Shown here piece after piece: positions 1 to 35,444 of a stretch of DNA of 64,000 nt. Within the stretch, counting starts at the first letter, position 1, and each line of letters opens with the position of its first letter. The notes under the pieces were generated by a model. The model was not told the origin of the DNA and ran no database searches. It saw only the letters and a program-made list of their open reading frames with translations. The stretch is from Nocardia sp. NBC_01730. Its GTDB lineage: Bacteria; Actinomycetota; Actinomycetes; Mycobacteriales; Mycobacteriaceae. The position numbers and the translations under genes were made by a program. The stretch covers positions 8,060,001 to 8,124,000 of the forward strand of contig NZ_CP109162.1 in the NCBI RefSeq assembly GCF_035920445.1. The letters are read 5' to 3'.

Positions 1-3000
1 TCGCCGGAAGAGCTGATGGACGACGACGCGGTCGAGGAAGAACTCGCGAACCGGCGAGGGGCGAACGGCGAGGTGGAGGAGAAATTCGAGCGGCTGCACA
101 AGATCATGCAGTGGGTCGCGAAAGCCGGCCGCTTGCAGGGACGGGCCGAGGAGATCGGCGCGTTGGCCGAGGCGCTGCGCGGTGCCCGGGCGCGGTTCGA
201 GCAGGGTGTAGGGTCCGTCGACGGTATCCGTCGGCTGACCGCACAGGCTGCTCGACTCGACGCGGTGGCAGGCCGGATCCGGCAGTTGGAGAACTTCCGG
301 GCACCGATCGGGCAGCAGTTGGATCTTGCCGCCGACGCCGAACGGGCCGCGCAGCTGACGCAACTGCGCGAACAGTTGCGCACCGGACTGGAGGAGTTGG
401 CGCTCGACCCGGTCGGTGCGGTCCGGGACGCGGCCGGTGTCACCGTGGGAACCGAATTGCTGCGCGCCAGGGCCGAAGCATTGGTGGCGCGTGGTACGGC
501 CAGGGAGCAGTTCTCCGATACCAGTGCCGCCCTGCGTGAGCCGGTCGACCGGACGGACCTGCGGGCCGAACATGCCCGGCTGCACGAGGAACGGGTACTG
601 AAGCTGGCCGGTATCGCCGCGATGCTCGGCGTGTCGCCGGAACAGCTGACACCGGGCCTGATCGCGGCGACAGCGGTGGAATTGTTCGACCGCGAAGCCG
701 GCCTGGCGTGGGAAGCGACAGTGCGGCGGCTGGAGGACCTCGACACGCTCCTGCGGGTGCTCGATGCCTTCGTCGCCGCGGACGATCGGGTGCGCCGGAT
801 CGACGCCGCCGAAGCCGCGTTGGCGCAGGTGGCCGCCCAGCGCGGCGTGGCGCGCACCCGGTACACAGAAGCTCACCGCGCCCATCGGAAACGCTTTGGT
901 GACAAGCAACTCCCGCCGCGGCCGGACCATGTGTCGACGGCGTTGCGAGAACAGCTCAGGGCAGCTTTCGTGGCAGTGACGCAGTTGCCGGGGTGGAGCG
1001 AGCCTGCTGCGACCCCCGCCGCGGTTCGCGGTTGGGTGCAGCGGATCGGGCCGGACGCGGGTGAACAGCTCGACACCGCGGAGCGGTACCTGAGTCTGCA
1101 CGAATTGCACAGTGCCGCTGTGGATTACGATAGCTGGGACCTGCTCGGGTACCGATTGTCGGCCCAGGCGCAACGACTCGAGAGCGTTGTGGTGCGCCGA
1201 CGCGAGGTCGCCGGTCTGCACGCAGGGGTCGGCAACGAGGTCGCAGTGCTCGCCGCCTGGCTCGGGGTGGCGCCCACCGACAGCGAGACCCGCCCGAGGA
1301 CGTTGCGCCGCGAACGGGAAAAGGCCCGTAAAGAGCTGGAGCAGCTGGTCCGGGACTCGGATTCGGACGTGCTGCGCAGCGAACTCGTCGAGGGCAGGCT
1401 GCCCCTGCGGCGGGTGCCCGCGCTACGGGACCTGCTGCTGCCGCGGCACGAATCGCTGCGCTTCGCAGCTACGAAGGTGATCGGCTACGGCGACTTGGCC
1501 GAAATGGCGACCCGCCGCAACGAACTGGCCGCGATGCTGGCCCAGCAAGATCGTCACCTGGACTCCGGTCTGGCCGAACTGGCCGACCGAACCTCGGAAT
1601 CGGTGGCCACCGAAGGCCTTTCACTGAGTTCGACCGACTTCCTGCCCCCCGACTCCGACCGCCGGGTCCTGCCGGGCAACTGCCTGCCGATGGCAGGCCG
1701 AGCCGCGATGAACGCGGTGGGTGCGCCGATCCCGCCGGGACTGGCCGGCTTCGTCGCGGGCACCGAAGGGGTGACCGCCCGCGACGCGGCGAAACTGCTG
1801 CGCGCCACATGGCATCCGGGCGGTTTCGACTCGATGGACGACATCCGCGCACACCTGATCGCCAATGGCGGCGCGGTGGTCGCGGTGATGGTCTTCGACG
1901 GCTTCCGGGACATGACCGTAGGTGCCCACGCGGTGTGCGTGAAACTCGTCGGCGACCGCGTCGTCGTCGTGGATGACGACGGTGTCGAAGTCGACTACGA
2001 CGACTGGGTGCGCCCGGACGGTGTGGCCGGCATCTTCGGTTTCGTCTTCAACGCCGACGGCACCGCCGCCCTCCCCCTCGCCGACGGCGAAGAACCGGGG
2101 CAGGTCGGTGTCGACTTCGAGGACACCAACATCGGCGCGCGGCCGGATCCGGGCGGGGGCCGGATCCGCGGCTTGTTCGGTCGGCGTGCGAAACTGCAAT
2201 CAGTCCGTGCCACGGCTGATGGGGCCGGATTGCCGCAGCCGAGGCCGCCCCGCAGCCTCGGAGACCCCATTGGCCTCCCATCGACCGGCGACGACAGCTC
2301 GGAGGTCGAGGATGTGCCGGAGCCTGGTCGCGGCGGCCAGGGCAAGCCGGCGCCCCGAATCGGCCGCGGACAACGCGACGGGGCGCTCCTCTCGGGCGGG
2401 GAGGACGTTCCATGGGTCGGTGACGGCACGGCTGCGCCTGGCCAGGTACATGTCCCGCCGTCTGGAGAACCTGTCGGGCCGAATGCGGTTCCGGAAGTAT
2501 TTCGGTCGGCACACGAGGATTTGGTCGTCGAACGGGCCGAGGCAGCGGCGGAATTGGCGAAGGCGGTTGCGAAGACAGGCGCCGACCTGGATGCCTTGCA
2601 GTCGGATCGGTTCGAACAAGAGCTGGAAGCCGCTCGGCAGCGCCTGGACGAACAAGGGGTCTTCGACGCGGACCGCTACGACACCGACTTGCGAACGGCG
2701 ACCCTTCGTTACCGCGAGGTCGCCGCGATGGTTCGCCGGCTCGAGGAACTTGGTGGGGTGTCGAAAGGTGCGGCGCCGTTTCGGCACCGGCTGTTGACGA
2801 AGCATGCTGCCGCGGTACTGAGTCGGCAGGAAGCGTTGCGGAGTCTGCGTGAAGCTGCCGCCGCGGCGGCAGCCGACCTGGTGGCGCTGCGGTCGGAGGC
2901 GCGAGCCGAGACCGAGATGGACAGGTTGCAGGGGCAGATTCCCGATGACGACTATTGGGAGCTCTCCGCGGCGCAGATCCTCTACGTCGAAAAGTCGGAG

Positions 3001-6000
3001 TCGGTAAGCCATTCGGAGCGGGCCATCGTGACACACGATGCCGTGGTGGAACATCGTGTCGACACTTCGGATCCGAATGAATCCGATCCCGTGCAAATAA
3101 TTCAGAGTTGGTCGGCAGACCAGCGCGAAGCGACCGTGGGGTTCAGCTGGGGTGAAGCAGGGGCGGTCGAAGCTGCCGCGTCGGCGTTGGGGGACAAGCT
3201 GCGGGAGTGGGGCTGGCGTGACCCAGGTCGGATCGCCGCGGCGATGGAGGTGGTGCGTAACGCCGGACTCGGTGCACTGGAATTCATCCGGGAATTCCCT
3301 GAACCGGAGGAGTTGGAACAGTTCGGAAACTTGGCGGGGTTCGACGGAGCATTTCAGAGCGCTCGCATCGGACAGGCTATGGAACACGTCTCCATTCGGC
3401 GCATTTTGTCGACGCCGTGGGTGCTACTGACGGTGCGATGGTCGGAGGATGCCGATATCCGATCGCTGTCTGTATCTGTCGAATGCAATCAATACCGCAT
3501 GCAGGGGCCGTTGCCTGAAGAACTCTTCTTGGGTGTAGAAGAGCTTGTCCCGCATCACAGTGCCGCCGCGGTGGGGGCGGAGGTCTACCGGTCGCTGAAG
3601 GCCGCCGAGCGGTCGGGGGTCGAGCCCAACGGGGAAGCCTGGGCGCATTTCGAAGAGCCGCGTGCTGTGGATGAGCCGGCGCGAAGCCGAGTCGACGGTG
3701 ACGAGGTGTCCGAGCCTCCGGACCAGGCGACACGGGATTTCGAGGCCAAGCGACGGGTGGTCGAGAAACTGTACGACGATCACCATGTCCGGTTGCTCGG
3801 ATGGGAGGCCGAGGACGTTCTGGTGGACGCTCTGGAGTCCGCCGACCGCGAGTTGCGTGACCTGATCGCGGAATACGGTGGCAGGCACAACCTTCGGGAA
3901 GTGCGTTTCGTCGATCCGGATGTGTTGAACCGCATCTCGGAAAAAGCCGTGGGACTGGCGAGTTCCTTCGGGACCAGTTATACCGCGACACACGCGAATT
4001 ATTACTCGGTCATCGAGATCGATCGAAAGGCGGTGACCGACCGGAAATGGTCCGCCGAGACACTGCAGAACGGGCGGGAGACCTTCTGGTGGGGCCGGTC
4101 GCCGGGGGGCCTGATCTCTCATCTCCTACGTCACGAGTTCATTCATGTGTTGGATCGGTCTCGCGGAATCACCAGGTCTCGCGGCAGCTTGATAGCGGGA
4201 ATGAATAGGGCCTTCGACGTTTTTCACAGCCGCGGGTTGCCGCCGTCGCCCCTTACATTCGTCGGCTGGTCGTGGCTGCTTCCGCGTTATGTCTTCGTCG
4301 ATGGCGACCCGGCAAAGGAGTGGAAGGAACAGGAGGTGCTGGCGGAGGGGGGCGTAGCCGGGGCACGGGACGCCTCTTTGGCGTTGGACGATCCGGCGCG
4401 GGTGGCATACGGGCTGTCGCATGGACTCGGCGCGGAAGAGTTCGCGCACACCATGGCGGACTGGGAGCATACGCGACTGCGCGTCGCGTATGGGAGCCGA
4501 AGTTTCCTGCGGCGGTTGGTGCAGAAAGTGCCCGCTCCGGCGCCCGCCGCCGAGGGAAACGGGGCGTATGCGCGTCCGTCTGTGCCGTGGTCGCACGAGG
4601 ACTACCTGTGTGGTCCGTTGACGATGCACGACGTCGGCGCGGTGACGGGCAGGGCTGGTCTCGACAAGTTCACCGCTGGGCTCGGGGGGATGCGGGTCAG
4701 TCGCATCGAAAAGGTGATGGGCGGTCGCAAGCAAGCTTTCACGAACATCGGCGAGGCCGTCGCCCGGTTGGAGGAGTGGGGTGCGCGGCGCGATGAGGAG
4801 AACCCGGGCAGTGGCAAGGACGTGGGCCTGTTGGTATTCGAACCGACGCATTCCGGAAAGCGCAGGGGGCGCGGGGATGTCGGCCACATGTATTGGCTGG
4901 TTCGTCGGGTGGACGCGGACGGAACCGTCCGGATCGAGCGGCGAGACCCGGGCAAGGGAGTGTTGCAACCCAATTTCGTGGAGTCGCGGGAGTCGGCTGG
5001 GCGTCCGGTGTTCGGCATGTTCCTCGACGCCGACGGCGAGCGGGTCGAAGTCGCCGACGCCGACGGCGTTGTGTGGACCAGTCATCGCGACTTCCGTGTC
5101 GGCGCGTCCGGCCAGGACCGGTCGGCGCGACCCGCTCCGCCCGGTAGCGACCCTGCCGTTGCCGTCTTGCTGGAGGCTGTCGACCCTGAACGGCTGGTGT
5201 TGTTGCGCGAAAGCCTCGTTGCGGAACGTAATGCCGCAGCATTGGATTGGCTCGAGACGGCGTTGCCCGAGGATGAGGAGCGCTACCAGAGGTTGCGCGA
5301 CATGGTTGTCCGGCTCGATAAGTTGCGCGCCGTCGTCTATCAACCCGATCCCATCGTCAGGTCGGATCGACTTCGGTTGCTTGTGCACCACTTCCACGCC
5401 GTCGCGGAGTGGTTCGACGCATTGGTAAGCGCCGACAACGCAACTTCGCTGTTCAGGCAGGTCCCCGACAACAGCATCGACGAGCACGAACGACGGGCAG
5501 TCGAAGCTGTCGACCGCTACCGAACAGCCGACGACCGAGTCCGCGCTCTCGCCGACGCGTTGGGCGCGGCCGAGTCCGGCAGTGCACCCGATCCCCGAGC
5601 GGTAGCGCCCGAGGCGTTGGAGAAGCCAGAGCAATCGGCGCCGAAGTATGGCGGTAGCGATGCGCCGCAGCGAGTTCGGTTTCGGGACGGTCACGAGGCC
5701 TGGGATTTCGAAAGACGATCGCGGTACGGGCACGAAATCTGGGATGAGGTGGTCAGTCAGCTGACCGACGACGAGCGCGCCTTGCTGAGTCGTTTCGCGT
5801 CGCTGGCGCAATCCGATGTGGAATTCGTCGCTCTGGTCGATGCCACGTTGCGCGGAGAGCGTGAACTCACTCCAGAGCTGGCCCGGATCATCGAGATCAT
5901 CGACGACGTTCTGACTCGGTGTCCGGTGGCCGAGCCGATCATGGTGACCCACGCTATCCCTGACGCTGCACTGGACATGACCAGCGATCTAACTGGAACA

Positions 6001-9000
6001 ATCCACCGACTGGACGAATTCGTGCCAGCGGTGATCGGGAAGCTCCCCAGACTGAGTGGACTCTTTTTCCACCTAGAACTGACCGTTCCCGCGGGCACTC
6101 CGGCGTTGTTCCTGACCGGATTGTCACCCACCCAGCATTCCGTTCCCGGCCTCCTGCTGGCCCGCGGGATGCACTACCGCATCGACAGGGTCGTAGACCA
6201 GGGTAGCGGTGAGTGGCTGATTCAGGCGACGGTTGTCCCCGAGCCGGGTCCGCGATCCACTTCCGGACCCGACCAGGCGACACCGCCTGCACGAGAACAA
6301 GGGCCGCGAACGGAAGGGCAGAGCGGGGCAGTCGATCCTCGAGTCGTGGTCGGCTCGCCCCAATGGCGAGATCATCACGAAGTCGATTTGATCTCGGCTG
6401 CGGGCGTGACGGACAGGGGCGGGCAGCCCGGCCGGCAGCACAAGGTGAACGAAGATTTCTTCGCAATCACAACGGCGGATATCGCCGGCGAGCAGTGGAC
6501 TTTGGCAGCGGTAAACGACGGCGTGTCCAGCCAGGGCCACAGCGAAGAAGCCGCGGAGATAGCTGCCGAAGCAGCCACTGCTGTTCTGCATCAGGAAGCT
6601 GCCCGTGTCCGGGCCGGCGGCAGACCGGACCCGGTGAAGACCATGAAAATAGCGGCCGAGGCCGCGCACCGTGCCGTTCACGCCCTGATATCGGAGAAAT
6701 ACGCCGACTCCGAACTTCCTCCCGGATGCACCATGGTGCTGGCGCTGGTGACTCCGACACAGATTCTCACCGACGTGGTCGGCGATTCCATCGCGTACTG
6801 GATCCCGCTCGACGGCGGACCCGCGATCCGGCTGACCGAGGATGACTTCTATCTCGCGGAATTGGCGAAGCGACGCGGCACGACGGTGGAGGCACTGAAG
6901 GCATCGGGGTTCAACCCATCGGTCTCCACCCGTTTTCTGGGTAAGGACTTCGAATGGCGAGGGCCGGAGCCCAAGGTCCACAACCTCACCGGCAGAGGAA
7001 TTGTGGCGCTGTTCTCGGACGGCGCCGTGAAGATCCATTCCAAGGACAAGTCGAGCGCGGACACCGTCGAACAGAAGATCGCGGACAGCGTCAGGCACAA
7101 GCTGGAGCAATCCTCGGGTAGCCTGCTCGGCGCGTCGAGAGCGATCGTGCAGCACGCCATCGATATGGGTGAACACGACAACGTCACCGCTGTCCTGATG
7201 GACCGCCCCTGGAGCAAATCCGGTTTCGAGGTACTCGCAGGGCAACTGCGTGCGCACAGTGGACCTTCTACACCGCAGGATGGTTCCGCGCCGTATCACC
7301 CCTCCGCCTCAGCGCGCCGTCCCGGCGGTGGGCTGCCGCTGGCCGATCCGGTGGTGGCCGAGCCGGTTGTCTGGGTGCGGCACGGCCTTCCTGGGCATGG
7401 CAATGATTGTGTGCCGGTGGCGTTCGGGGAGTTGGAGCGGGTGCATGGCGCGGGGTTGGTGGATTGGTCGGGGTTGGGTGCGGTCGGGCCGGAGGGTGTG
7501 TCGGGTAGTCGGATTGTTGGTGCGTTGCGGCGGCATCGGCCGGTAGGTGTTGCCGATCGGGCTGTTGATGTGTTGCGGCATCGTCCGGAAGGTTTCGCTG
7601 ATCGCGAGGCGGTTTTTCGGGAGGTGGCGGGGCGTGGTGTGAATGCCGCGGCGGTGATGTTCGAGGTGTACGACGACACCGGTATGGGGCATGCGGTGCT
7701 TTTGGTGCACAAGGGCGCTGGTCGGGTTGTGGTTCGTGAGGGTGACCTGGAGACGGACTTCGAGCAGTGGTGTAGGGATCGTCCGGATCCGACTGGTGTG
7801 TGGGCGGCTGTGGTCGACGAGAACGGCGATCTTGTGATCGGCCTGGGCAAGCCGGAGTCGCCGCTGTTCCCACTGGACAGGACCTTCGGACAGAAACCGG
7901 AATTCTCCGATAACCCTCCCGACGCCACACATACTGAACCGCCAAGTGGCGGCCGTGTTCCCCCGGGAGAACCGCACGCGCGCACGTTCGGTGAGGTGCG
8001 TGATCAATTCGGGCCGGAGATTTTCTGGATGGTGTTGTCCGAGGTGGGTGATCGGGGGTTGGCGCAGGCGATAACCCGAGATGTATTTGCGTATGCGGAG
8101 TCTCGTCTCGGGGTGATCGCCGAAAAGCGTGGTCTCGCCGATGGGCTGCGTGAGGTCGTTCATCGCGTCATGTTCGAGCGGTTGCGCGGGGGGATTCTGG
8201 CGGCGTTGCGGGATGCGGAGGTAGCCGAATCCGCGCTGGAATACTGGGTGTTGGCCGAGACGAGCACAGTGACGATCGAGCAGTGCTTGGCACAGCTGCG
8301 CTCCGGCTGGCGCCAATGGTTGGTGTTGCGGTTCAGGGAGGGGAAGTCGCGGGCCGAGGCTGCGGTGGCGAGGCGCTTGGGTGGTGCGAGCGCGGACACG
8401 ATCGCGAAGCTGGAGCTCGATGCGATCCGTGGGTTGTCGGCCAAGTTGATTGCTGCCGATTTCGGCGTAGATCTTCCTGTCGACCAGCCTGAGCCGGATG
8501 GGCCGGCGTATCAGCATGGTGTGGACGTGCTGCCGCCGGTGGATTCGCAGGAGTATGCGGAGTTGCTGTCAGCGGTGGAGGAAAGGGTGCATCCGAAGGT
8601 TCGGGATGCGATGGCAGGCGATCTCGGGGCGTTGCTACGTGCTATCGATGGCCTTCCATCGTCCGACCAGCGGAAATTTTGTGCCCTGCGGATCTTCCAG
8701 GGTTTGTCTCTGGAAGAGACGGCAACGGCGATGGGCAACAGCACCTTGGCGCGGGTCAAGGGGCTACGGGACCGTGCCGGGACGGCGTTGGCCGAGCGAC
8801 TTCCTGCCGAGGTCGGCAAAAGCGCCGAACCAGCGCCTGCCGAGCAGACCAGCGCCGCGATCGAGGGCTCGAGCCCAGCTGGTGACTCGAGTGCGGCTGG
8901 TGGTGGCGAGGCGTCGGTCACCGGCCGCTACCGGGCGTTGGATTTGGTAAAGGCGGCTTGGCGGGACGACCGCGCCGCAGTGCTTGTCGCGATGGGGCGA

Positions 9001-18000: not shown

Positions 18001-21000
18001 TTCCTGTGGTCGCAACTCGGTGCCCGGAGAACGGACTTCGAGCACCGGTGGGGTGGCGGGTTGGGAACCGTGTTCCGCGGGTTGGAAATTCCCGACAGGC
18101 CGTATCATCCGTTCTACGAATTGGAGAGCGCGCTGGTTGTGGAAACGATCCGGATTCTGCACACGGCGCTGCGCCCAGAAAACCTGTCGATCGATGACCA
18201 CGGCAACCTGATCGAGGTCACCGGCTGGGACAAGGCCCGACCCGGTCCCTCGTCGTGGGACCTGACCATGCTCGAATCCATCGGTATTCCATCGGTTTCC
18301 GAGCCGGACGACCACCCCAACCGGGCGGTCTGGCGGCAGTTGCACGCTGTCCAGGAGGTGATCGAGCGGGCGTTCGACCAGTTGGGCACCGACCCCGACC
18401 CGGCGTACTTGGAACGTTTCGTCGCCGCGCGCAGGTTCTGGGGACTGCCTACCGATACCAGCGCGCAGCTGCTCACCGCGGTGGTCGCTGGACCGGAGAG
18501 CCGGTTGGCGGCCGAGCTGCCCGAAGCCCACACGCTGCGTCGTAGCCACCTGGTACGCGAGGACGGGCAGCGGATCGGCGCGGCCGAGACGCGGGATGCG
18601 GTGCAGGATGCGGGCAATTTCCTGCGCCGCTCACTGGCGCGCTGGTCGCCCACGCGCCCGACACACGTGCGGGCAGCGGCGGCCGCCCTGGGCACGGTGG
18701 TCCGGCATGCGCTGGACATCACCGACACCGGCCGGGTGATGGTTACCGTCGACGAGATCGCCGCTCCCGCATGGAACCGGACGCTGCACGTGCGGGTGCT
18801 CTACGCCGGCTCGCAGCCGTATCTGCCGGAACAGCTGCCCGAGGACGTAGAGGGGAACCTGCACACGGTGACCGCGGCGGCGCTGGACGACCGCCACGAA
18901 GGCTGGGCTGCCTGGTCGTTCAGTTTCGCGATCCGTACCGCGGTCTTCGACGCGACTCGGGCGGACGAGGTCGCCGGCGCGCTGCCGGCGGACGTGCTGC
19001 GGCCCACCCACACCTCGGCGCACCGCTACCGGCCGTTGGGGCTGCTCCCAGGGGCCGGCCCGACCATGACCGAGGACGAAGCGGTCGCCGTGCTGACCGG
19101 TCCGGACGCCAATGGGACCGGTTCGCTGGTCAAAGGCGTGCACAGCTGGGGGACCGCGGTCGGCGACGGTTTCTGGGTGGCTCGGCCGCGACCGCGGCAT
19201 CCCGACGAGATGAGCCCGCAACCCTGGCAGTACCACGGGCATCGCGTGCTGATCGCCATGACCCCGCACGTCGCGTTGACGCCGCGGGTGCTGCACGTCG
19301 CGGCGGGCGGCCGGGTGCTGATCATGCAGCGCCTGCCCGGTCATTCGGGCACCAGGGAAGAGCTGGAGATGCTCGGCGGGGAGGTCACCACGGTGACCGA
19401 GACGCTGTTGACACAGCTGGCGTCGGTGCCGGAAGACACCTTGCCCGCACTGCCCGCGGGATACCCGAGACGTCCTGCGGAATTCTTGGACATGCTCGTC
19501 GACACCGCGATGGCGGTGTTCGACCGGCACCGGGAGGCACTGCAGGAGGTGCTGGGCTGGCTCGATATCCCGGACAACCCGTTCGCTCCGGTACTTGTGC
19601 AGCGGGAAGCTCTGGCCGAGCACCCGCTCCAGCTGATCCCCGGGGCGCTGGGGTCCGAGGACTACCTGTTCGGCAACGGGGTGATCACCGGCATCACCGG
19701 GAGTGGGATCTCGTTGCTGTGGGGCGACCTGTCCTATGCCTGGGCGGTGCTGCAGAATTCCGATTTACCGGTGCCGTGGTCGGCCGATGGTAATGCCGAG
19801 ATTTACCGGGGTTTCCTGGTCGTTCGGGACGTCCTGTCCGGCTTGATCGAATTGATCTCGCCCGAGGTGACGTCCGCGGACCGCGTCGCGGTCGAGCGGC
19901 GGGTTCGCCGCAGTATCCACCGGGCTCACAACCTGTGGGGAGTCCGCAGACAGAGGCAGGACGCGATCGACGCGGTGCTGGCGAAAATCCGCGACCGGGC
20001 CGGCGAAACGATCCCACCGGTGTTCGACGCGCCGGAGAACTTCGACCGGCTGCCCGCCATCGGCAAGCACGCCATTGCCCGCGCCGAAATATCCCAGGAC
20101 ATCCGGGCTTTCGACACCGACACCGACGCGGTCCGGTTTGCCCAGCCCCAGGCCGGGCAACGACTACCGCTGACCCACGCCCTGATCATCATGCTCGCGA
20201 TCCCGGACGCGATTCCAGCCGCCGTAGCACAGCTCCCCCCAGACACCGTCGCCGAGATCGGAGCTCGCCCGTCGGATCGATTGTCGGACGGGAACATCGG
20301 GTATCTGCGGGTACCCCGCGGCACGTTGGTGCAGTGGGAGTCGGACATCGACGGCAACCCGCGTCTGCGGCTGGTCCACGGCGGCGACGTCCAGGTGACC
20401 CGTGCCTTCTCCGACGAGAACGGCTACGGAAACATCTACGGCAGGCTCACGCCCCGTGGCGACGGCAGGCCCGACGGCGGTCCGGATGCGCCGGAAACGC
20501 TGTCGCTGCCGCCGGACACGGTGGCGGCGGCCGAATTCGGTCGCCAAGGCTCCGAAGCCGCGGACACGGTCGGTGCGCATGTTGCCGAAACGGCGGCAGG
20601 CCAGGAGGCGATGGACCTCGCCACGGACACCGCGCGAAGCCGGATCGGGCGCCACCATGGCGTCGGGCAGTGGATCCGGAACACGGTTGCCCGGCTGGGT
20701 TTCGGGCGCGGTTCGACGGCCGTCGGCGCTATGGACGCAGCCATGGCCAAGCCGGTGCCGCTGCCCGATCCAGATCGGGTTCCGCGAACCTGTGGTCCGG
20801 TGGGATTGCGGTTCGGCCGGGACGAGCTCGGCCTGCCGGTGCGGGTCCAGGAGCTGACCGCCCAGATTCGGGCCAGGGGATTGTCCGGCCGCGAGATCGT
20901 CGAGGCCACTGACGGCAACTGGCAGGGCTTCCGGCTGGTGTCGCAGATGGCGGAGTTGGCCGAGAACGGGCACACGGTGTTCGGCGCGGCCAATTTCGGT

Positions 21001-24000
21001 GGCCGCCGGGGTGGGCACCTGTTCGTGATCTATCAGGATCCGAAGACCCGCAGGGTGATGGTGCACGAGGGACTCGGGGACACCGAACGCACTATCCCCT
21101 ATGCCGAGTGGAAACCGCCGACCGGTGCGGTGGGCTACGCCGGAATCGTGTTCGGCCAGGACAAGCTGCCGGTGGACCCGGTGAATCCGGCGACCGGTCC
21201 GCGGTTCGACCCGGAGGTGAGCATCCCGGAGTGGGTCGGTACCCGGCGGGCTGCCGGAGACGAGACAGCACTGTTGGTCGAGGCGATCCAGAAATACCAG
21301 TCGAGCCTGCTGGCGCCGCTGCTGGCACAGCTGTCGGAGGACGAACAGTGGTTGTTCCACCGGTTTTTCGAGCTCGGCGACGAGCTCAATCCGATCGGGG
21401 AGGAGATCGGCAGGAACCGCAACGCGGTTCGACGGCGGGTGAACAGCCTTGCCGAGAAACTTTTGGGGTTGCTGCCTGCTGACACTCTCGAACGTTTCAC
21501 TGCCGGTGGGGTGATTCGGCTGGCCACTGTGGCGGATATTGCTGCGGATGCGGGGGTGGGCGTGCGGATGGTGCAGCGGGTGCGTGGTGATGCGCGGGGA
21601 ATCGATCCCGAGGTGCGGGAGCGGGTAGCGTCGTCGGAGCGCCGAATCGGGTTCCAGACCGGCCGCCGTGTCATCGTTGTCGATGCCGCGGACGTGGACG
21701 TGGACGAGATACAACAGCGGACCCCGATTCCGGTGGTGACCGGAACCGAAACACCGCCGCCTTCTCTTCGGGAGAGCCCACAGTTGCGGGCAGTCAATGA
21801 GGCCGATCGGGACATGCTGCGCGATTGCATTGCCCGGCTGAAGGATCCGGACGACCAGCTGCTCGCCACCTGGTTGTTCCTGGACAAGCTGAAACCCGCC
21901 GCTGTAGCCGAACGGTGGGGATGCGCCACACGCCTCGCCATCAAGCGGCGCTACCAGCTGGCGATGTCGTTGGCGATTCTTCTTTCCGGCCGCCCGTTGC
22001 TCAGCGACGGAGAAGTCATCTTGCTGGTCGAGGTGATTCAAGAGCACGACGTGGATGTGCTGCGGCCGTTGACGGCAGAGCTTTCCCCGGACCGGCAAGC
22101 GCTTTTCGAGCAGTTCTACGTCGATCACCTCGGCACCGAAGACATCACGGCACGGGAAGGGCTCGGCCGAGGCGTCGCCTACGATCGAATTGTCCGGATC
22201 GCTCGGCTGTTGACCGAAAAGATCCCGGTGGAACTCATGCAGTGGTACACCCGGGGAAGACTGCGGCGGGTCGAGTTGGAGGATGTGGCCGTTCGGGTGG
22301 GGTTGAGCGTGCCGACGGTGCGTTCGATACTGCACAACTACGCCGACAAGCTCGCCAGAATCCCTGCGGCTACCGTGCGTCGGACGCGCGAGGCGGCCGA
22401 TTACCTGGGGTGGACTGTGGAGCACCAGGCGGTTGTGATGGAGACGCCGGCTGGTGTCGTGCCGGTATTCGGGTCGAGGGACCGCGAACTCGTCACTGCT
22501 GCCAAGTCAGGCGTTGCGGAGGCGGTGGATCTGTTGTGGGACCATCACCGCGGCGTGGTCGACCGGTTGCTGTCGCGGTTGCGTGAGCCGAGGCGGGTGC
22601 AGCTGACGGCGGAGGTGCAGCGGCGGGTACGCCAGGGCGTGTCCGACTTGGAGCCGGACACGGATGTGGCGCGGTGGTTCGGCGAGGTGACCGAGCAGGT
22701 GTTGCGGCAGTGGCAGCAGTACGCCGAACACATCCGTTTCCGCCAGGCGGTGCAGGAGTATGCGCAGCCTGTTGAGGTGCGGGAGACCTTGGCGCGGGCG
22801 AGCGATCGAGATTTCCTGGCTGCGTTCCGGTCATTGCCCGTGGGTTGGCAGGAGATTTTCCGGCTGCGTTTCCACGTCCAGGAGAGGACCGCAGCGCAGG
22901 TGGCTACCCGCAAGGGGGTGAGCAAGGCTGCGGTCGAGGAGTTGCTGGACGACGGGATTGCGCAGCTGGGGGAGCGGATTGCCCCGCGTGCCCGCGTATT
23001 GGTGTTGAAAGGGGTGGCAAGGGATCACTCAGCGGCGTTGGAACCGCTGCTGGGGCGGTTGTCCACGGAGGACCAGGAGCTGTACAACCGCTGCTTCGTC
23101 CAGGGACACCAGCCGTCGCGGGTCGCACGGGACACAATGTCGGAGTGGGTGGCACTGCACAACCGGCTGGAGAACCTGGCCACCGCTCTGCTCGGCGGGC
23201 TGCCGGGGCAGCTGTGGAGCGGCTATCTGGCCGATCTGCCCGAGGACATCCGGACCCATGGGGCAGCTGATACCGGATTGGACCACGCGGCGGTGCTGCT
23301 GATCGAAGCGGTCCAGGCGAGTGAACCGGAGTTGCTGCGCTCGTGTGCCGAGCGGCTGGCCGAGGAGGACCACCCGCAGTTCGACCGCTATTTCGCGGAC
23401 GGTTGGATGCCGTCGGAGATTGCCGCGGAGAAGGGATCCCCAACACGGTCGGTCAGAGCCGATCTGCGTCGGCTGGCAACCGAACTGCTCGACATGTTGC
23501 CCGCCGATCTCGAACAGCGCTACACCGGTGGCGGCCGGCTGCGCCGGGCCCGCCTGCCGGACGTGGCACAGGAAGCCGGGGTCGGGCGCGCCACTGTGGT
23601 GGCGGTGCTGCAGGGCGGAGTCGAGGTGGATCCCGCCGAGCGGCAGCGGGTGCTCGATGTGGTGCGCCGACTCGACTATCACCCGGTCCGTGCGGGGGTG
23701 GTGCGCGACAGCAGTGCCAACCGGACCCGGGCCTCGGCGCCGGACAGCCCGATTCCGCGAGTCTTTCTGCCTGGGGCCCTGCCACGGATCTGCGGCCCCG
23801 TGGCGTTTCGGTTCGCGCACGACCGGCTGGGCCTGGACGTGGATGTGCCGGAAATAGGCAATGCCAGGATCCGCACCGCAGGCATGTCGGGTATTGCGGT
23901 GGCGGTTGCCGCGAAAGGGAATTGGCACGGGTTCGACGACATCGGGCAGATGGCCGAGCGGGCCGCCATGGGCGGGACGGTGTTCGGTGCGGTGAACTTC

Positions 24001-24423
24001 GGCGGTGACCTGGGTGGGCATCTGTTCGTGGTGTATCAGCACCCGGAAACCGGTGTGGTGATGGTGCACGAGGAGGTGGATGGCGTCGAAGCAGACGTCG
24101 CGGTCGAGGACTGGGTGCCACCGGAAGGCGTGGTGGGCTACGCCGGGATCGTGATCGGCAAGGACAAGCGGCCGATGGATCCGGTGGATCCGGAGACCGG
24201 TCCGCGGTTCGACCCGGAGGCGAGTATCCCGGAATGGGTCGGTCACCGCCCCGATGATGTCGAGCCGCCCGATCCGGACGGCTCCGCCGAGCCGCCGACT
24301 GCTGCGGAGCCGGACGAATCGGGACTGCCGCCCGGCAGCAAGCAGCTACCGGATCCGGGGGCACGACTTTCCGATGAGGGCGCCATCGCCGGGCTTCCCG
24401 AGCAAGCCGCGGCGGGAGGGTGA
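1..24423 (+). CDS. Giant multidomain polymorphic-toxin-like protein (5' end outside window)
   Basis: One open frame runs from the window edge to a stop at 24421. The first ATG in view is at 16 and the frame is open before it, so the true start probably lies upstream. Residues are numbered from the ATG at 16. Seen: a helical N-terminus; six papain-like/glutamine-deamidase modules with Cys-His pairs C556/H638 (D653), C1532/H1624 (D1644), C2465/H2559, C3238/H3330 (D3346), C6926/H7001 and C7926/H8002; a zincin motif HEFIH at 1373-1377; an ADP-ribosyltransferase-like stretch near 1975-2067 without its catalytic residues; a PP2C phosphatase at about 2120-2400 (VNEDFF, NDG, VGDS, FSDG, DNVT motifs); sigma-region-4-like repeats at 2760-3135; LacI-type HTHs near 3149, 7169, 7417 and 7844; four kinase-like repeats at 4990-6640. 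Domain names follow motif recognition. Inference: a secreted or cell-associated effector; no secretion signal is visible because the N-terminus is missing. Confidence 0.9.
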   Translation, partial: SPEELMDDDAVEEELANRRGANGEVEEKFERLHKIMQWVAKAGRLQGRAEEIGALAEALRGARARFEQGVGSVDGIRRLTAQAARLDAVAGRIRQLENFRAPIGQQLDLAADAERAAQLTQLREQLRTGLEELALDPVGAVRDAAGVTVGTELLRARAEALVARGTAREQFSDTSAALREPVDRTDLRAEHARLHEERVLKLAGIAAMLGVSPEQLTPGLIAATAVELFDREAGLAWEATVRRLEDLDTLLRVLDAFVAADDRVRRIDAAEAALAQVAAQRGVARTRYTEAHRAHRKRFGDKQLPPRPDHVSTALREQLRAAFVAVTQLPGWSEPAATPAAVRGWVQRIGPDAGEQLDTAERYLSLHELHSAAVDYDSWDLLGYRLSAQAQRLESVVVRRREVAGLHAGVGNEVAVLAAWLGVAPTDSETRPRTLRREREKARKELEQLVRDSDSDVLRSELVEGRLPLRRVPALRDLLLPRHESLRFAATKVIGYGDLAEMATRRNELAAMLAQQDRHLDSGLAELADRTSESVATEGLSLSSTDFLPPDSDRRVLPGNCLPMAGRAAMNAVGAPIPPGLAGFVAGTEGVTARDAAKLLRATWHPGGFDSMDDIRAHLIANGGAVVAVMVFDGFRDMTVGAHAVCVKLVGDRVVVVDDDGVEVDYDDWVRPDGVAGIFGFVFNADGTAALPLADGEEPGQVGVDFEDTNIGARPDPGGGRIRGLFGRRAKLQSVRATADGAGLPQPRPPRSLGDPIGLPSTGDDSSEVEDVPEPGRGGQGKPAPRIGRGQRDGALLSGGEDVPWVGDGTAAPGQVHVPPSGEPVGPNAVPEVFRSAHEDLVVERAEAAAELAKAVAKTGADLDALQSDRFEQELEAARQRLDEQGVFDADRYDTDLRTATLRYREVAAMVRRLEELGGVSKGAAPFRHRLLTKHAAAVLSRQEALRSLREAAAAAAADLVALRSEARAETEMDRLQGQIPDDDYWELSAAQILYVEKSESVSHSERAIVTHDAVVEHRVDTSDPNESDPVQIIQSWSADQREATVGFSWGEAGAVEAAASALGDKLREWGWRDPGRIAAAMEVVRNAGLGALEFIREFPEPEELEQFGNLAGFDGAFQSARIGQAMEHVSIRRILSTPWVLLTVRWSEDADIRSLSVSVECNQYRMQGPLPEELFLGVEELVPHHSAAAVGAEVYRSLKAAERSGVEPNGEAWAHFEEPRAVDEPARSRVDGDEVSEPPDQATRDFEAKRRVVEKLYDDHHVRLLGWEAEDVLVDALESADRELRDLIAEYGGRHNLREVRFVDPDVLNRISEKAVGLASSFGTSYTATHANYYSVIEIDRKAVTDRKWSAETLQNGRETFWWGRSPGGLISHLLRHEFIHVLDRSRGITRSRGSLIAGMNRAFDVFHSRGLPPSPLTFVGWSWLLPRYVFVDGDPAKEWKEQEVLAEGGVAGARDASLALDDPARVAYGLSHGLGAEEFAHTMADWEHTRLRVAYGSRSFLRRLVQKVPAPAPAAEGNGAYARPSVPWSHEDYLCGPLTMHDVGAVTGRAGLDKFTAGLGGMRVSRIEKVMGGRKQAFTNIGEAVARLEEWGARRDEENPGSGKDVGLLVFEPTHSGKRRGRGDVGHMYWLVRRVDADGTVRIERRDPGKGVLQPNFVESRESAGRPVFGMFLDADGERVEVADADGVVWTSHRDFRVGASGQDRSARPAPPGSDPAVAVLLEAVDPERLVLLRESLVAERNAAALDWLETALPEDEERYQRLRDMVVRLDKLRAVVYQPDPIVRSDRLRLLVHHFHAVAEWFDALVSADNATSLFRQVPDNSIDEHERRAVEAVDRYRTADDRVRALADALGAAESGSAPDPRAVAPEALEKPEQSAPKYGGSDAPQRVRFRDGHEAWDFERRSRYGHEIWDEVVSQLTDDERALLSRFASLAQSDVEFVALVDATLRGERELTPELARIIEIIDDVLTRCPVAEPIMVTHAIPDAALDMTSDLTGTIHRLDEFVPAVIGKLPRLSGLFFHLELTVPAGTPALFLTGLSPTQHSVPGLLLARGMHYRIDRVVDQGSGEWLIQATVVPEPGPRSTSGPDQATPPAREQGPRTEGQSGAVDPRVVVGSPQWRDHHEVDLISAAGVTDRGGQPGRQHKVNEDFFAITTADIAGEQWTLAAVNDGVSSQGHSEEAAEIAAEAATAVLHQEAARVRAGGRPDPVKTMKIAAEAAHRAVHALISEKYADSELPPGCTMVLALVTPTQILTDVVGDSIAYWIPLDGGPAIRLTEDDFYLAELAKRRGTTVEALKASGFNPSVSTRFLGKDFEWRGPEPKVHNLTGRGIVALFSDGAVKIHSKDKSSADTVEQKIADSVRHKLEQSSGSLLGASRAIVQHAIDMGEHDNVTAVLMDRPWSKSGFEVLAGQLRAHSGPSTPQDGSAPYHPSASARRPGGGLPLADPVVAEPVVWVRHGLPGHGNDCVPVAFGELERVHGAGLVDWSGLGAVGPEGVSGSRIVGALRRHRPVGVADRAVDVLRHRPEGFADREAVFREVAGRGVNAAAVMFEVYDDTGMGHAVLLVHKGAGRVVVREGDLETDFEQWCRDRPDPTGVWAAVVDENGDLVIGLGKPESPLFPLDRTFGQKPEFSDNPPDATHTEPPSGGRVPPGEPHARTFGEVRDQFGPEIFWMVLSEVGDRGLAQAITRDVFAYAESRLGVIAEKRGLADGLREVVHRVMFERLRGGILAALRDAEVAESALEYWVLAETSTVTIEQCLAQLRSGWRQWLVLRFREGKSRAEAAVARRLGGASADTIAKLELDAIRGLSAKLIAADFGVDLPVDQPEPDGPAYQHGVDVLPPVDSQEYAELLSAVEERVHPKVRDAMAGDLGALLRAIDGLPSSDQRKFCALRIFQGLSLEETATAMGNSTLARVKGLRDRAGTALAERLPAEVGKSAEPAPAEQTSAAIEGSSPAGDSSAAGGGEASVTGRYRALDLVKAAWRDDRAAVLVAMGRLTRFERKSIRLRIIEGLSLADMVTAMADAKRSEAGLSQLYKKAIRNLAEELTGFRALTNAEARARVRAAQRYDAAGFERFVRELGTDQLNADERRLVELRFLENLEHGAIAAVMDKSESAVEKLQDRAVGKLAVLLMAALLPDGEKYTVLGTVRPATADDVARVVGVSRKTVDLVLRGANPVDPSTVRRLLAAAEVLGYQPGSGETHTAVRTLPDRPPAESPVPAVDDGAAEYVESAHSLNWCVPLVLGELADSGVTGVRILENVGLAGVLAPVAQDAMAGWMLEIPVDPDRPDDPHAAVKRQLIQLGKGAQAVIVDEYADEHHDMVDGKPVGAHMYRLVNVDGHRIEVRDPGRGRVHEYPPVAGRRLKGSWSTLFAADKSRVHPLESERPAEYSGILPESYIGKGLPLDETFGRNPDDERPPSAAERGTRHSDSAEPASVEDGPAAELLRTVMAADREAVLSVIAEQAEPQRELLQRVFVADPPRSVDGAARRLGLSPGEADQLRQGIAATLEQLAIPVQILNAQKRFRLQTILRKRPWEGVVALRELGAHDRLHLACVEFRILVDVPRSLEGFAAELGISAAAVIRHERLGVEWLTTFFDDRMPLGTAAILLVHARDHHRDVLDRVLDLFHAHSAVQCGLIRTWLADEAVASAAARRRFINQPALQNAAKRLASWLATELDPVAEVERRERFDRQVDRVTVPDTSPAAQARWSEARVEAAVPPDIATANVANAEAGYWLKWLAMWWGATRHGIRDLDPHPDGHRPDPSTVLEHWPNRYAETLASDRPLDTLYAAFREFLRIEPLPAGGVAVHNDGHGPRTLWIMAAELAVIYELGFPFNASEDAVREAIERVRPERLTAIAAVLEPVDTRNAARLKRMATLVARLSAESEFFADVLRSPVPDTWSWPSPDRHEQARALSAPITIDLTGPEAPVSDLVVDAESSTLGDVVARIEHAQHHQPQLLTAVIEEQLYTSSVKSHSVAVDLLLRHGPSRLPELLARSLDISVEQAKRLLHAALQGVVDRLSVAAVSTESPVLQHVRLPDLVEDEIPAALTEIGCALNWLRLRYGYLTYHLPVFEPADDEAWRSITILERWGAAFRTQLRADPMWTALSSRVESYFPLDTEAVHPVLIRNGGPGPALLMLSRIEEMLWRIVGSPLQPGEDAERRVAELVHPARLARIVAKLDPRSDPYGLVVQLTSEALLKLPAESGVLGSVVHGPAPETVDWPAAVEWHPAWASIAVRPPMSLLPPDTGGTAATAGPAPDPKSIPPAPPREPATGERPRLRPTPADLRALAERKRNPPAAPTTFAAATPGIGHETWAFGPALGTPRDVADVMDELGVPEREREPNPIANPFGRRGMLDSGVWFAHDPHLGSDAHAFDPYVAGVSRARRERAALAARQYRLRTEGDQEAAEWLAGRISELDATLEQPDSPPEQVGEPDRRDAESILREHGIRAVGVDTANSDRNRVAAIARRLCHALVEHVGFDVREIRFEPMDLGVFWDVDFDLDSAEMSFGVGWFFARSITFNERYLTDPRRLAHDWAQAVAEGRIRGPVDDPVTGMADRAIAATLVMTGGWAPIASMMEALAARHAASGSSMALDAWYYAQFREFGRLPNGAVDETALFVEAFAAVERGDDTATDGDVVLHTLLRDSGREEIRRQEWVAAIAAQHRTASEAEQQAKQQLTKRLTDRGFHVWGFDNRLIPVQIVREYVETVETLADRYRFLDSLERYDMLGWPDLWIDVPHGEMDGTSDVADMLVEFHEDGRIALNPLWAAAPEELRRRVRADLAAGRRRGDPEHPTAGLIMNALARWVSDLVEPDQAAIDNPGIQPEVDKLRALFGSIDTGEVGFDDWLHTQFSESCFPEGVFDPAEAVVESFMLGELDLERTAGEDLLHRHLQDRIAAAAERAGTDRSEPAPLPLPPPSEEPVAEAAVDPSVLVDEQGRPRPELAAALNLSHEQVPADIDETPVVTAEDDSAGWRAQNPHGVLLVDEYGPLGGDSGLQMPRDHAMLIADAAIKSNHIAQGFNNRIYYIGEYVVLVVKPVQGVDPKQFPQHVMLTELARAGVVKSTRVLHVLTNFRLPEGTVVDESAPVLIMERKRGRVPTQEEFYRLRPKILRDLKTMTEQLRTVDQEPLRRYLPANTPTNVWEFARYLIAERRKVFRQFAAAGMRGKFRDLGIVSDDVADPYAVLEPLIPLLVPEDLWPGHGDWIPDNMLIADDELQVVLDWELGLFAPESYNWAILHYRGVPGYVPSSLGGPNMWFWLLVCHIARTVDDASRQVPGGRDTTYLASLVVLHMLHGRNPRGAAEVVRRATGSVPRVDIGTEPKITMLILREEGVVYNDELIDQAAAAAVEFVGHQVAEWPSYKRSAIRNLVNLAVSHALTESHGKVVVMVDKAALPEWNRMVRFTVSSDAPVLLDWSFLPDDMRDWFGECESSFVTDPYEGLTNAAVFVSRTRYFGTISADKAMAAMARSFHRLLSEPDSYYRHLGVPQDLRGELPRDEAWNLLQLAAQWAVGRVEGPHWEGVAVGDGYWVCWDIPDRTESPGNPLGLRPFAGREHLVAQALVAAQVDLAPQVLRVFPGQEVFEGDNPPRLALIMRRIPGEPRTGHALERMSDEIAYAASAHLRQLEQVPVGTLPALPSGWPTNSRDFLRHLIDHARAAFEPHRERAAALGIIDAADPFRSVSARITELELRELQLVPSIFDPTNILFTNDRVSGITGALCWGDPSWLWANLHSANLTVPPEHLDGNALIYIHFLRTWRLMRGVIDMASDQSLEPAEQVFAIAEESPEHPVVTVVELPPGDEFRAVGETTGRDMTPDEAVEIVATVLHHGEATEDTRTYSYEFGDYRVEVEKPAQGYPWERIPQHEVVEFLAGHGVEWLPQVLCVLGGHDPVGQMRDGGSRIPSGWTRGIRLPGGLVADESSRVVLLRRNPNAHVATAEEFDRHRDRIMATLREQAAQLERIPLEEMTTWLRRWVSELDLPGNRYCGDVVAFLWSQLGARRTDFEHRWGGGLGTVFRGLEIPDRPYHPFYELESALVVETIRILHTALRPENLSIDDHGNLIEVTGWDKARPGPSSWDLTMLESIGIPSVSEPDDHPNRAVWRQLHAVQEVIERAFDQLGTDPDPAYLERFVAARRFWGLPTDTSAQLLTAVVAGPESRLAAELPEAHTLRRSHLVREDGQRIGAAETRDAVQDAGNFLRRSLARWSPTRPTHVRAAAAALGTVVRHALDITDTGRVMVTVDEIAAPAWNRTLHVRVLYAGSQPYLPEQLPEDVEGNLHTVTAAALDDRHEGWAAWSFSFAIRTAVFDATRADEVAGALPADVLRPTHTSAHRYRPLGLLPGAGPTMTEDEAVAVLTGPDANGTGSLVKGVHSWGTAVGDGFWVARPRPRHPDEMSPQPWQYHGHRVLIAMTPHVALTPRVLHVAAGGRVLIMQRLPGHSGTREELEMLGGEVTTVTETLLTQLASVPEDTLPALPAGYPRRPAEFLDMLVDTAMAVFDRHREALQEVLGWLDIPDNPFAPVLVQREALAEHPLQLIPGALGSEDYLFGNGVITGITGSGISLLWGDLSYAWAVLQNSDLPVPWSADGNAEIYRGFLVVRDVLSGLIELISPEVTSADRVAVERRVRRSIHRAHNLWGVRRQRQDAIDAVLAKIRDRAGETIPPVFDAPENFDRLPAIGKHAIARAEISQDIRAFDTDTDAVRFAQPQAGQRLPLTHALIIMLAIPDAIPAAVAQLPPDTVAEIGARPSDRLSDGNIGYLRVPRGTLVQWESDIDGNPRLRLVHGGDVQVTRAFSDENGYGNIYGRLTPRGDGRPDGGPDAPETLSLPPDTVAAAEFGRQGSEAADTVGAHVAETAAGQEAMDLATDTARSRIGRHHGVGQWIRNTVARLGFGRGSTAVGAMDAAMAKPVPLPDPDRVPRTCGPVGLRFGRDELGLPVRVQELTAQIRARGLSGREIVEATDGNWQGFRLVSQMAELAENGHTVFGAANFGGRRGGHLFVIYQDPKTRRVMVHEGLGDTERTIPYAEWKPPTGAVGYAGIVFGQDKLPVDPVNPATGPRFDPEVSIPEWVGTRRAAGDETALLVEAIQKYQSSLLAPLLAQLSEDEQWLFHRFFELGDELNPIGEEIGRNRNAVRRRVNSLAEKLLGLLPADTLERFTAGGVIRLATVADIAADAGVGVRMVQRVRGDARGIDPEVRERVASSERRIGFQTGRRVIVVDAADVDVDEIQQRTPIPVVTGTETPPPSLRESPQLRAVNEADRDMLRDCIARLKDPDDQLLATWLFLDKLKPAAVAERWGCATRLAIKRRYQLAMSLAILLSGRPLLSDGEVILLVEVIQEHDVDVLRPLTAELSPDRQALFEQFYVDHLGTEDITAREGLGRGVAYDRIVRIARLLTEKIPVELMQWYTRGRLRRVELEDVAVRVGLSVPTVRSILHNYADKLARIPAATVRRTREAADYLGWTVEHQAVVMETPAGVVPVFGSRDRELVTAAKSGVAEAVDLLWDHHRGVVDRLLSRLREPRRVQLTAEVQRRVRQGVSDLEPDTDVARWFGEVTEQVLRQWQQYAEHIRFRQAVQEYAQPVEVRETLARASDRDFLAAFRSLPVGWQEIFRLRFHVQERTAAQVATRKGVSKAAVEELLDDGIAQLGERIAPRARVLVLKGVARDHSAALEPLLGRLSTEDQELYNRCFVQGHQPSRVARDTMSEWVALHNRLENLATALLGGLPGQLWSGYLADLPEDIRTHGAADTGLDHAAVLLIEAVQASEPELLRSCAERLAEEDHPQFDRYFADGWMPSEIAAEKGSPTRSVRADLRRLATELLDMLPADLEQRYTGGGRLRRARLPDVAQEAGVGRATVVAVLQGGVEVDPAERQRVLDVVRRLDYHPVRAGVVRDSSANRTRASAPDSPIPRVFLPGALPRICGPVAFRFAHDRLGLDVDVPEIGNARIRTAGMSGIAVAVAAKGNWHGFDDIGQMAERAAMGGTVFGAVNFGGDLGGHLFVVYQHPETGVVMVHEEVDGVEADVAVEDWVPPEGVVGYAGIVIGKDKRPMDPVDPETGPRFDPEASIPEWVGHRPDDVEPPDPDGSAEPPTAAEPDESGLPPGSKQLPDPGARLSDEGAIAGLPEQAAAGG

Positions 24424-24754: not shown

Positions 24755-25456
24755 TCAGGCCGACGCGGGTATCGGCCGCGGTAGTCGCCTGGAGCGCGTC
24801 TCGATATCGGCGAAATGAGCCGACATCGCCGCTCGCGCGGCCTCGGGGTCACCTGCGCGTAGCGCGTGCAGGATCAGGCGGTGTTTGGCGATGATCTCGG
24901 AACGCTTCCACGTGGTGGGACGTAGGTCGGCGTCGATCTGGTGGTAAACAGTCCAGAACAGATCGATGAGCTGGGTGGCGATCTCGTTGTCCACCCGCTG
25001 GTACAGCGTCAGATGGAACTTGCGATCCGTTTCGGCCAGATCCCCGGTCTCCATCTCGGCGATCGCCTCTTCGAGGTCCGCCAGGAACTGGTCGTCGGTC
25101 AGCCGCGCCGCCTCGTCGATCAGCGCGACCTCCAGTATTCGGCGCACCTGGACCAACTCGGCCAGATCGTCGGCGTCATGCCGGACCGCTTGCTGTGCCC
25201 GGAACCGCAAGGCGGGCAACATCGCGGTCATCGGCGCATGCCCGACCACAGTGCCGTGGCCGTGCCGAATGTCCACGATCCCCAGCGTGTGCAGGGCCCG
25301 CAACGCCTCGCGCACCGAGTTGCGGCTCGCCCCCAGTTCGGCCATCAGCTGCGGTTCCGGCGGCACCACATCGCCCGGTCCCAGACCGCGTTCGAGAATC
25401 AGGTTGACAACCCGCTCCTGCAGTGACATCCCTTGCGGACCTCTTCTGGCAACCAT
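24755..25456 (-). CDS. GntR family (FadR subfamily, FCD domain) transcriptional regulator
   Basis: A 233-aa protein with an N-terminal winged HTH (about residues 10-75, including SRNSVREALRALHTLGIVDI) followed by an all-helical FCD ligand-binding domain with the usual metal-ligand pattern (histidines around RKFH, AKHRLILHAL and SAHFADIE). FadR-type regulators bind short palindromes and respond to small acids or sugars. It is divergently transcribed from a lyase and an MFS carrier, and the gap between them carries a palindrome, so it very likely controls those genes and itself. NanR, the sialic-acid regulator of enterobacteria, belongs to the same subfamily, but the ligand here is an inference. 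The GTG/ATG at 25429 is an alternative start. Confidence 0.9.
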   Translation of the reverse strand: MVARRGPQGMSLQERVVNLILERGLGPGDVVPPEPQLMAELGASRNSVREALRALHTLGIVDIRHGHGTVVGHAPMTAMLPALRFRAQQAVRHDADDLAELVQVRRILEVALIDEAARLTDDQFLADLEEAIAEMETGDLAETDRKFHLTLYQRVDNEIATQLIDLFWTVYHQIDADLRPTTWKRSEIIAKHRLILHALRAGDPEAARAAMSAHFADIETRSRRLPRPIPASA

Positions 25457-35366: not shown

Positions 35367-35440
35367 GGGGCGGTAGCTCAGTCGGTTAGAGCCGTGGACT
35401 CATAATCCATTGGTCGCGGGTTCGAGCCCCGCCCGCCCCA
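35367..35440 (+). tRNA. tRNA with CAT anticodon (elongator Met, or Ile2)
   Basis: A 74-nt cloverleaf: acceptor GGGGCGG pairs with CCGCCCC and an unpaired A follows; the D arm contains AGCTCAGTCGGTTAGAGC; the anticodon stem GTGGA/TCCAT closes loop CTCATAA with anticodon CAT; the T arm is GCGGG-TTCGAGC-CCCGC. CCA is not encoded. Elongator Met is the default call, and lysidine-modified Ile2 is possible because both use CAT. The 3' half serves as the integration target of the island that follows. Confidence 0.93.
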
Positions 35441-35444
35441 CAAA
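35399..35444. repeat. attL-like direct repeat (tRNA 3' half)
   Basis: This 46-bp stretch, from the anticodon loop through the tRNA end plus CAAA, recurs at 40735-40780 with two differences. The pair is the expected footprint of a tRNA-targeting tyrosine recombinase and bounds the genomic island. Confidence 0.75.

Follow-up and report, generated by a model that had tools for sequence, protein, structure and literature searches.

Giant actinobacterial proteins with several toxin domains on one chain have been described by Zhang et al. (2012; PMC3482391), who, in their passages on these proteins, gave SACTE_5178 of Streptomyces sp. SirexAA-E (13,652 residues) as the longest and reported the papain-type Tox-PL1 domain both in proteins of the type VII secretion system (T7SS) and, at internal positions, as a releasing peptidase. 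Elsewhere, a single sentence mentions a 15,203-residue calpain-half homologue of Nocardia brasiliensis (PMC4631099), and a giant open reading frame (ORF) of 39,678 residues is given in PMC10066038. Here, we describe gA, a giant gene whose 3' part lies in a 64,000-nucleotide stretch of the genome of Nocardia sp. NBC_01730 (contig NZ_CP109162.1, positions 8,060,001 to 8,124,000; hereinafter, the whole stretch is referred to as the window). Its product is best read as belonging with the giant actinobacterial multi-toxin proteins noted in 2012, of which it would be a far larger variant.

With the giants of Zhang et al. (2012), gA shares its actinobacterial origin, a chain of more than 10,000 residues, and several toxin-type enzyme domains per chain (papain-like, CdiA_C, PP2C, and APH), papain-like and, putatively in gA, metallopeptidase domains occurring in both. 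It differs in size, since gA-type frames of 36,587 and up to 51,851 codons are 2.7-3.8 times as long as the longest 2012 example, in its 33 papain-like modules per chain accompanied by APH, PP2C, sigma, and LacI modules, and in its setting, six giant frames with a homogenised 5' block being present in this genome and collinear across species. No caspase, MCF1-SHE, or lethal-factor domain exceeded the Pfam threshold in gA. The match to Tox-MPTase4 was weak (E 0.085), and ADP-ribosyltransferase, a warhead type named in a preliminary description of the window, had a lone sub-threshold match, to PF03496 (E 0.02, 14.7 bits vs. a cut-off of 23.4). The same description stated that such proteins normally carry one warhead each and that no comparable combination was known, which is too strong in view of the multi-toxin giants in the passages cited above (PMC3482391). 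The N. brasiliensis protein resembles gA as a giant Nocardia protein with a papain-fold fragment, the two being compared by description only; beyond that one sentence (PMC4631099), no published description of these Nocardia giants was found in a search of literature outside subscription journals.

Frame 1 of the window was open from its first base to a stop codon ending at position 24423, and this part represents the 3' quarter of gA. The whole gene is a single stop-free frame of 36,587 codons, 4.5 times longer than its part inside the window, which begins with an ATG at contig position 7974660 and stays open through both 20-kb stretches upstream of the window; the one uninterrupted frame that had been claimed was thus found to be real and larger than proposed. 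The host genome consists of a single contig of 8,676,891 bases. Because the remaining five frames over gA contained 127, 474, 486, 587, and 774 stops, and because the GC content of third codon positions (GC3, 0.73-0.86) was higher than that of second positions (GC2, 0.45-0.57) in all 2,000-codon blocks, a chance open frame was ruled out. Judged from its sequence, gA looks like one of the longest predicted bacterial proteins. Known size records include Chlorobium chlorochromatii (~36,800 residues) and an ORF of Omnitrophota (~85,800 residues).

That gA is an artefact, decaying sequence, or several genes sharing one frame is very improbable. Such a reading would fit the frame break found in a low-complexity tract of two further giants of this genome, gC and gF, whereas stop-free frames of 10,820-51,851 codons were present in three genomes, and neither promoter-like sites (2 vs. 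2.2 expected) nor terminator-like sites (13 vs. 10.3 expected, standard deviation 3.6) were in excess in window positions 1-20000. In addition, the ratio of nonsynonymous to synonymous differences (pN/pS) had a median of 0.59 and never exceeded 1 among 601 pairs of homologous segments from outside the shared block; these pairs were picked at 45-97% identity and are not independent. Decaying sequence was rejected on this ground.

All six Cys-His papain-like modules proposed for the window were recovered, each with both residues retained (Table 1). Among the 33 modules of gA, four lacked Cys or His, all of them upstream of the window. Ten giants together contained 226 such modules, with Cys in 192, His in 199, and both in 189, and the third position was acidic in 204 of 225; no module was detected in the controls (one shuffled and one reversed). 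The Cys-His-acidic pattern is that of Tox-PL1/Gln_amidase (PF15644), from which the giants differ in having many copies per chain instead of one, and the window modules stayed under the cut-off of this family (best score 15.8 bits vs. 24.1). Among the PF15644 matches listed for the genome, 22 of 27 were inside giant frames; the four that exceeded the cut-off belonged to modules of gF and gB. For the window modules, "deamidase" denotes family resemblance only, and glutamine deamidase chemistry is putative.

The phosphatase, kinase-like, and DNA-binding-like domains of the preliminary description all had Pfam counterparts. The PP2C domain matched PF13672 (E 5.7e-11, 42.8 bits vs. a cut-off of 24) and NCBIfam Stp1 (E 8.1e-14, under that model's cut-off), and a PP2C domain was also found in gF. 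The kinase-like domain was of the APH type (PF01636, E 2.3e-10, 42.4 bits vs. 23.2), which exceeded the cut-off in gA and twice each in gB and gF, and the helix-turn-helix (HTH)-like repeats corresponded to sigma-70 region 4 or ECF sigma and LacI-type HTH. Further modules included HATPase_c_2 and CdiA_C (E 1.5e-12 for CdiA_C) in upstream gA, and Abhydrolase_8 in gF (E 2.4e-19) and gE (E 2.3e-7). As for the zincin proposed around HEFIH, the segment proved to be conserved, with homologues in other giants and HExxH kept in nine of 11 aligned copies, whereas the motif alone was near chance frequency in gA (2 seen, 1.63 expected); a single-sequence prediction of the segment gave no confident fold (predicted local distance difference test score, pLDDT, 33), and conservation is the only basis of its putative zincin identity. 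Outside the papain-like modules, 2,056 of 2,970 pieces of 150 residues were homologous to at least one other piece of the ten giants. Most of these repeat families had no Pfam name; in scans of ten representatives, PP2C was over the cut-off and HATPase_c under it. PDB sequence searches gave no match.

This domain content would also suit a non-toxin, namely a giant protein for regulation or processing, intracellular or bound to the envelope, composed of sigma, LacI, HATPase, PP2C, and kinase modules. Among the LacI-HTH matches listed for the genome (the best 150 of 245 candidates scored), 62 of 73 were in five giant frames, where 26 exceeded the cut-off, and none was listed in gE; and sigma-type, HATPase_c_2, and PP2C domains are present. 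A regulatory protein is quite unlikely, however, with papain-like and toxin-type modules in the majority and with the head domain, the neighbouring gene, and the cysteine depletion reported below.

A WXG100-type feature of the T7SS had been anticipated upstream of the window, and a WXG100_2-like domain was indeed found at the start of gA, scoring 20 bits with PF25547, under the cut-off of 27; the profile was matched by 11 of 12 N-terminal relatives (best E 7.9e-18). WXG100_2 is presumably linked to CpnT-type N-terminal domains, which the giants resemble in this profile match and from which they differ in that the head precedes a chain tens of thousands of residues long. Upstream of gA were two frames, of 614 and 119 residues, and a YbaB/EbfC-family gene of 163 residues. 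A YbaB/EbfC homologue was located on the same strand at most 2.5 kb upstream in 48 of 64 named loci, which include short WXG100_2 proteins, and it also adjoins gA and gE. Three EccC ATPase genes exceeded the cut-off in the genome, one of them 22 kb past the end of gF, and none of the three adjoined gA. Cysteine accounted for 0.24% of residues in the ten giants vs. 0.85% in 17 ordinary ORFs of the window, and low cysteine content is typical of many exported proteins.

Because of this head, operon, cysteine depletion, and enzyme content, we infer that gA encodes an exported multi-effector protein; that it is a T7SS-linked multi-effector megaprotein of Nocardia, possibly self-cutting, has in our judgement about an even chance of being correct. 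The WXG100_2-type head, made beside its YbaB/EbfC partner gene, would mark the chain, of roughly 4 MDa, for export by a type VII (ESX-type) system. Behind the head, about 33 papain-like Cys-His(-Asp/Glu) modules follow one another in order, and between them are PP2C, zincin-like, APH-kinase, alpha/beta-hydrolase, HATPase, sigma, and LacI-type modules as well as helical linkers. Cuts at linkers would probably be made by some of the papain modules, as has been proposed for internal Tox-PL1 domains, and the modules thus released may target proteins of a competitor or, with greater likelihood, those of a eukaryotic grazer or host. Export leaves the sigma and LacI modules unexplained. MARTX toxins likewise combine numerous effector domains and an internal cysteine protease in one exported chain; they use a different secretion route and are about ten times smaller than these giants, and the likeness is one of domain layout. 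The stacked multi-warhead toxin of the preliminary description is thus supported with respect to the many toxin-type modules in one chain, the T7SS-like head, and the single-module relatives in other giants, whereas deamidase and ADP-ribosyltransferase activities are putative. A self-processing giant surface or cell-wall protein (adhesin- or coat-like), as proposed for the giant ORFs of Omnitrophota, would agree with the size class and poor Pfam coverage, in which gA resembles those ORFs as PMC10066038 portrays them; in the Pfam scans of gA, however, no adhesion or transmembrane-repeat domain exceeded the threshold (no transmembrane-helix prediction was run), and we hold a surface protein to be distinctly improbable.

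A convergent gene follows gA, gB, gC, gE, and gF (GntR/FCD, LysR, FAD oxidoreductase, transposase, and a small frame plus HTH/DUF5753), and downstream of gD is a co-directional frame of 1,274 residues that contains an MFS domain, downstream ORFs having been chosen by GC3. No co-directional immunity-like gene was found directly downstream of gA, gB, gC, gE, or gF, and, as paired immunity genes are lacking, the target is somewhat more probably eukaryotic than bacterial. This lack also bears on whether gA could be a classical antibacterial polymorphic toxin, in which only the last module would be the warhead, the remainder being a stalk together with a graveyard or reservoir of former tips, exchanged by recombination in the shared 5' block. 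The giants do have a shared N-terminus and a variable remainder: over a block that begins ~2.5 kb before the gene and ends 6.6-9.9 kb inside it, aligned pieces of gA, gB, gC, gD, and gF were homogenised (96.9-99.7% identical), and the sequences diverged thereafter. Near-identical tandem repeats were present in gF, in which long repeats at residues 48401-50490 (~85-93% identical) are signs of recent growth, and the best match of 36 of 220 papain modules was within the same giant. A polymorphic toxin is nevertheless unlikely, as 121 of the 220 modules were best matched in another species (and 63 in another giant of the genome; pairs above 97% identity excluded), module order is mostly conserved, internal modules retain catalytic residues at low pN/pS, and five of the six giants are without the expected downstream gene.

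Among the 26 giant pairs that had five or more matched segments, 20 showed a Kendall tau of segment order of at least 0.6. It reached 0.89 between the giants of two related genomes, G117 and G115 (49 segments), and 0.99 between gB and G117 (22 segments); the between-species comparisons included the N-terminal region, which raises tau slightly. Low values were obtained for gB-gC (0.0), gF-xB (0.14), gC-yA (0.21), gC-gF (0.29), gA-gC (0.33), and gB-gF (0.52), of which only the last was significant. The tau values and the best-match distribution point to an old backbone, for the most part ordered, to which duplication and displacement have been added, tandem repeats in gF being recent, and the order of modules, mostly conserved between species, argues for a maintained architecture. 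With 20 of 26 pairs collinear, a randomly shuffled warhead reservoir was rejected as the sole explanation. The proposed reservoir with exchange is therefore partly upheld, duplicates and displaced modules being present, whereas order is mostly conserved between species.

The six giant frames of this genome, whose products look secretion-linked and rich in enzyme modules, range from 17,116 to 51,851 codons and total 184,023 codons, or ~6% of the chromosome. In gC and gF, the WXG100_2 head was encoded by a separate preceding frame of 646 and 642 codons (2952333-2954273, minus strand, and 6935798-6937726, plus strand), with the break in a Ser/Asp-rich low-complexity tract, for which phase variation, decay, or assembly error are possible readings. 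A frame of 3,484 residues that weakly matches Gln_amidase lies at 629254 (plus strand), shortly after gE and a transposase gene. Three LacI-HTH matches were located at contig positions 3214936-3221163 (minus strand) in a 6,034-residue frame, possibly a further relative without the queried head.

Genes of the same type, sought in other strains as the preliminary description suggested, were found. The gA N-terminus alone retrieved no relative from the named genomes; the N-terminal alignment A1 did, and 61 of the 64 named loci so retrieved belong to Nocardia. The first 400 residues of gA were matched in 136 of 150 same-genus genomes (E <=0.001), mostly by short frames, and at least 16 of the 150 had a matching frame of at least 10,000 residues, up to 40,807 between stops. 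Genome G117, of a related species, has three giants in tandem (40,805, 10,820, and 15,940 codons), and G115 has one (33,511 codons). The papain profile had matches in 17 of the 249 genomes from the order (at most the best 13 candidates per genome scored), 12 of them outside the genus with frames of 253-6,941 residues. In protein-database searches, region 500-3400 of P0001 gave one match (615 candidates scored), a 5,314-residue Nocardia "sigma factor" (P0002), a label that is misleading for such mosaics; the papain profile A3 gave one 268-residue fragment with papain and LacI parts, and the C-terminal 440 residues of gA gave no match. At the genus level, we tentatively propose, at somewhat less than even chance, a class of collinear, self-processing, T7SS-exported Nocardia megaproteins of 10,000-52,000 residues, which would each carry, as an arsenal in fixed order, dozens of effectors of papain and other types on one polypeptide, occupy ~6% of one strain's chromosome, and have their 5' end kept identical by gene conversion.

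Coordinates of gA, its modules, and the giant frames are listed in Table 1. Elsewhere in the window, a tRNA-Met (CAT) gene (35367-35441) and a 1,960-codon plus-strand frame (51481-57363) were identified.

Table 1. Features of gA in the window (window positions) and giant frames of the genome (gA to gF, contig positions).
Feature	Position	Strand	Remarks
gA end	1..24423	+	last 8,140 codons and stop of 36,587-codon frame
Papain-like module 1	1573..2145	+	residues 525-715; Cys, His kept; AlphaFold core pLDDT mostly >90
Putative zincin segment with HEFIH	3748..4530	+	HExxH in 9/11 aligned homologous copies
Papain-like module 2	4528..5103	+	residues 1510-1701; Cys, His kept
ADP-ribosyltransferase-like stretch	6052..6216	+	PF03496 sub-threshold
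PP2C phosphatase domain	6433..6843	+	PF13672
Papain-like module 3	7285..7863	+	residues 2429-2621; Cys, His kept
ECF sigma-like stretch	8647..8745	+	PF07638
Sigma-70 region 4	9259..9396	+	PF04545, E 2.9e-13
LacI-type HTH	9475..9603	+	PF00356, over cut-off
Papain-like module 4	9622..10176	+	residues 3208-3392; Cys, His kept; sub-threshold PF15644 match
APH-type kinase domain	15076..15744	+	PF01636 over cut-off; weaker copies further downstream
Papain-like module 5	20743..21231	+	residues 6915-7077; Cys, His kept
Sigma-70 region 4	22831..22968	+	PF04545
LacI-type HTH	23554..23685	+	PF00356, over cut-off
Papain-like module 6	23710..24225	+	residues 7904-8075; Cys, His kept; close to C-terminus
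GntR/FCD regulator gene	24755..25456	-	next after gA, convergent
gA	7974660-8084423	+	36,587 codons
gB	1970700-2068049	-	32,449 codons
gC	2900416-2952555	-	17,379 codons
gD	712306-763656	+	17,116 codons
gE	533842-619767	+	28,641 codons
gF	6937504-7093059	+	51,851 codons

These frames extend a little-studied class from 13,652 to 36,587 and 51,851 residues, with six giant frames in one genome. If they are translated and exported, they raise the questions of how a bacterium makes, folds, and moves a chain of 4-6 MDa, what selection preserves the dozens of catalytic modules and their fixed order, and whether the giants are deployed by Nocardia against grazers or hosts. The giant genes are amenable to deletion and proteomics in one strain.
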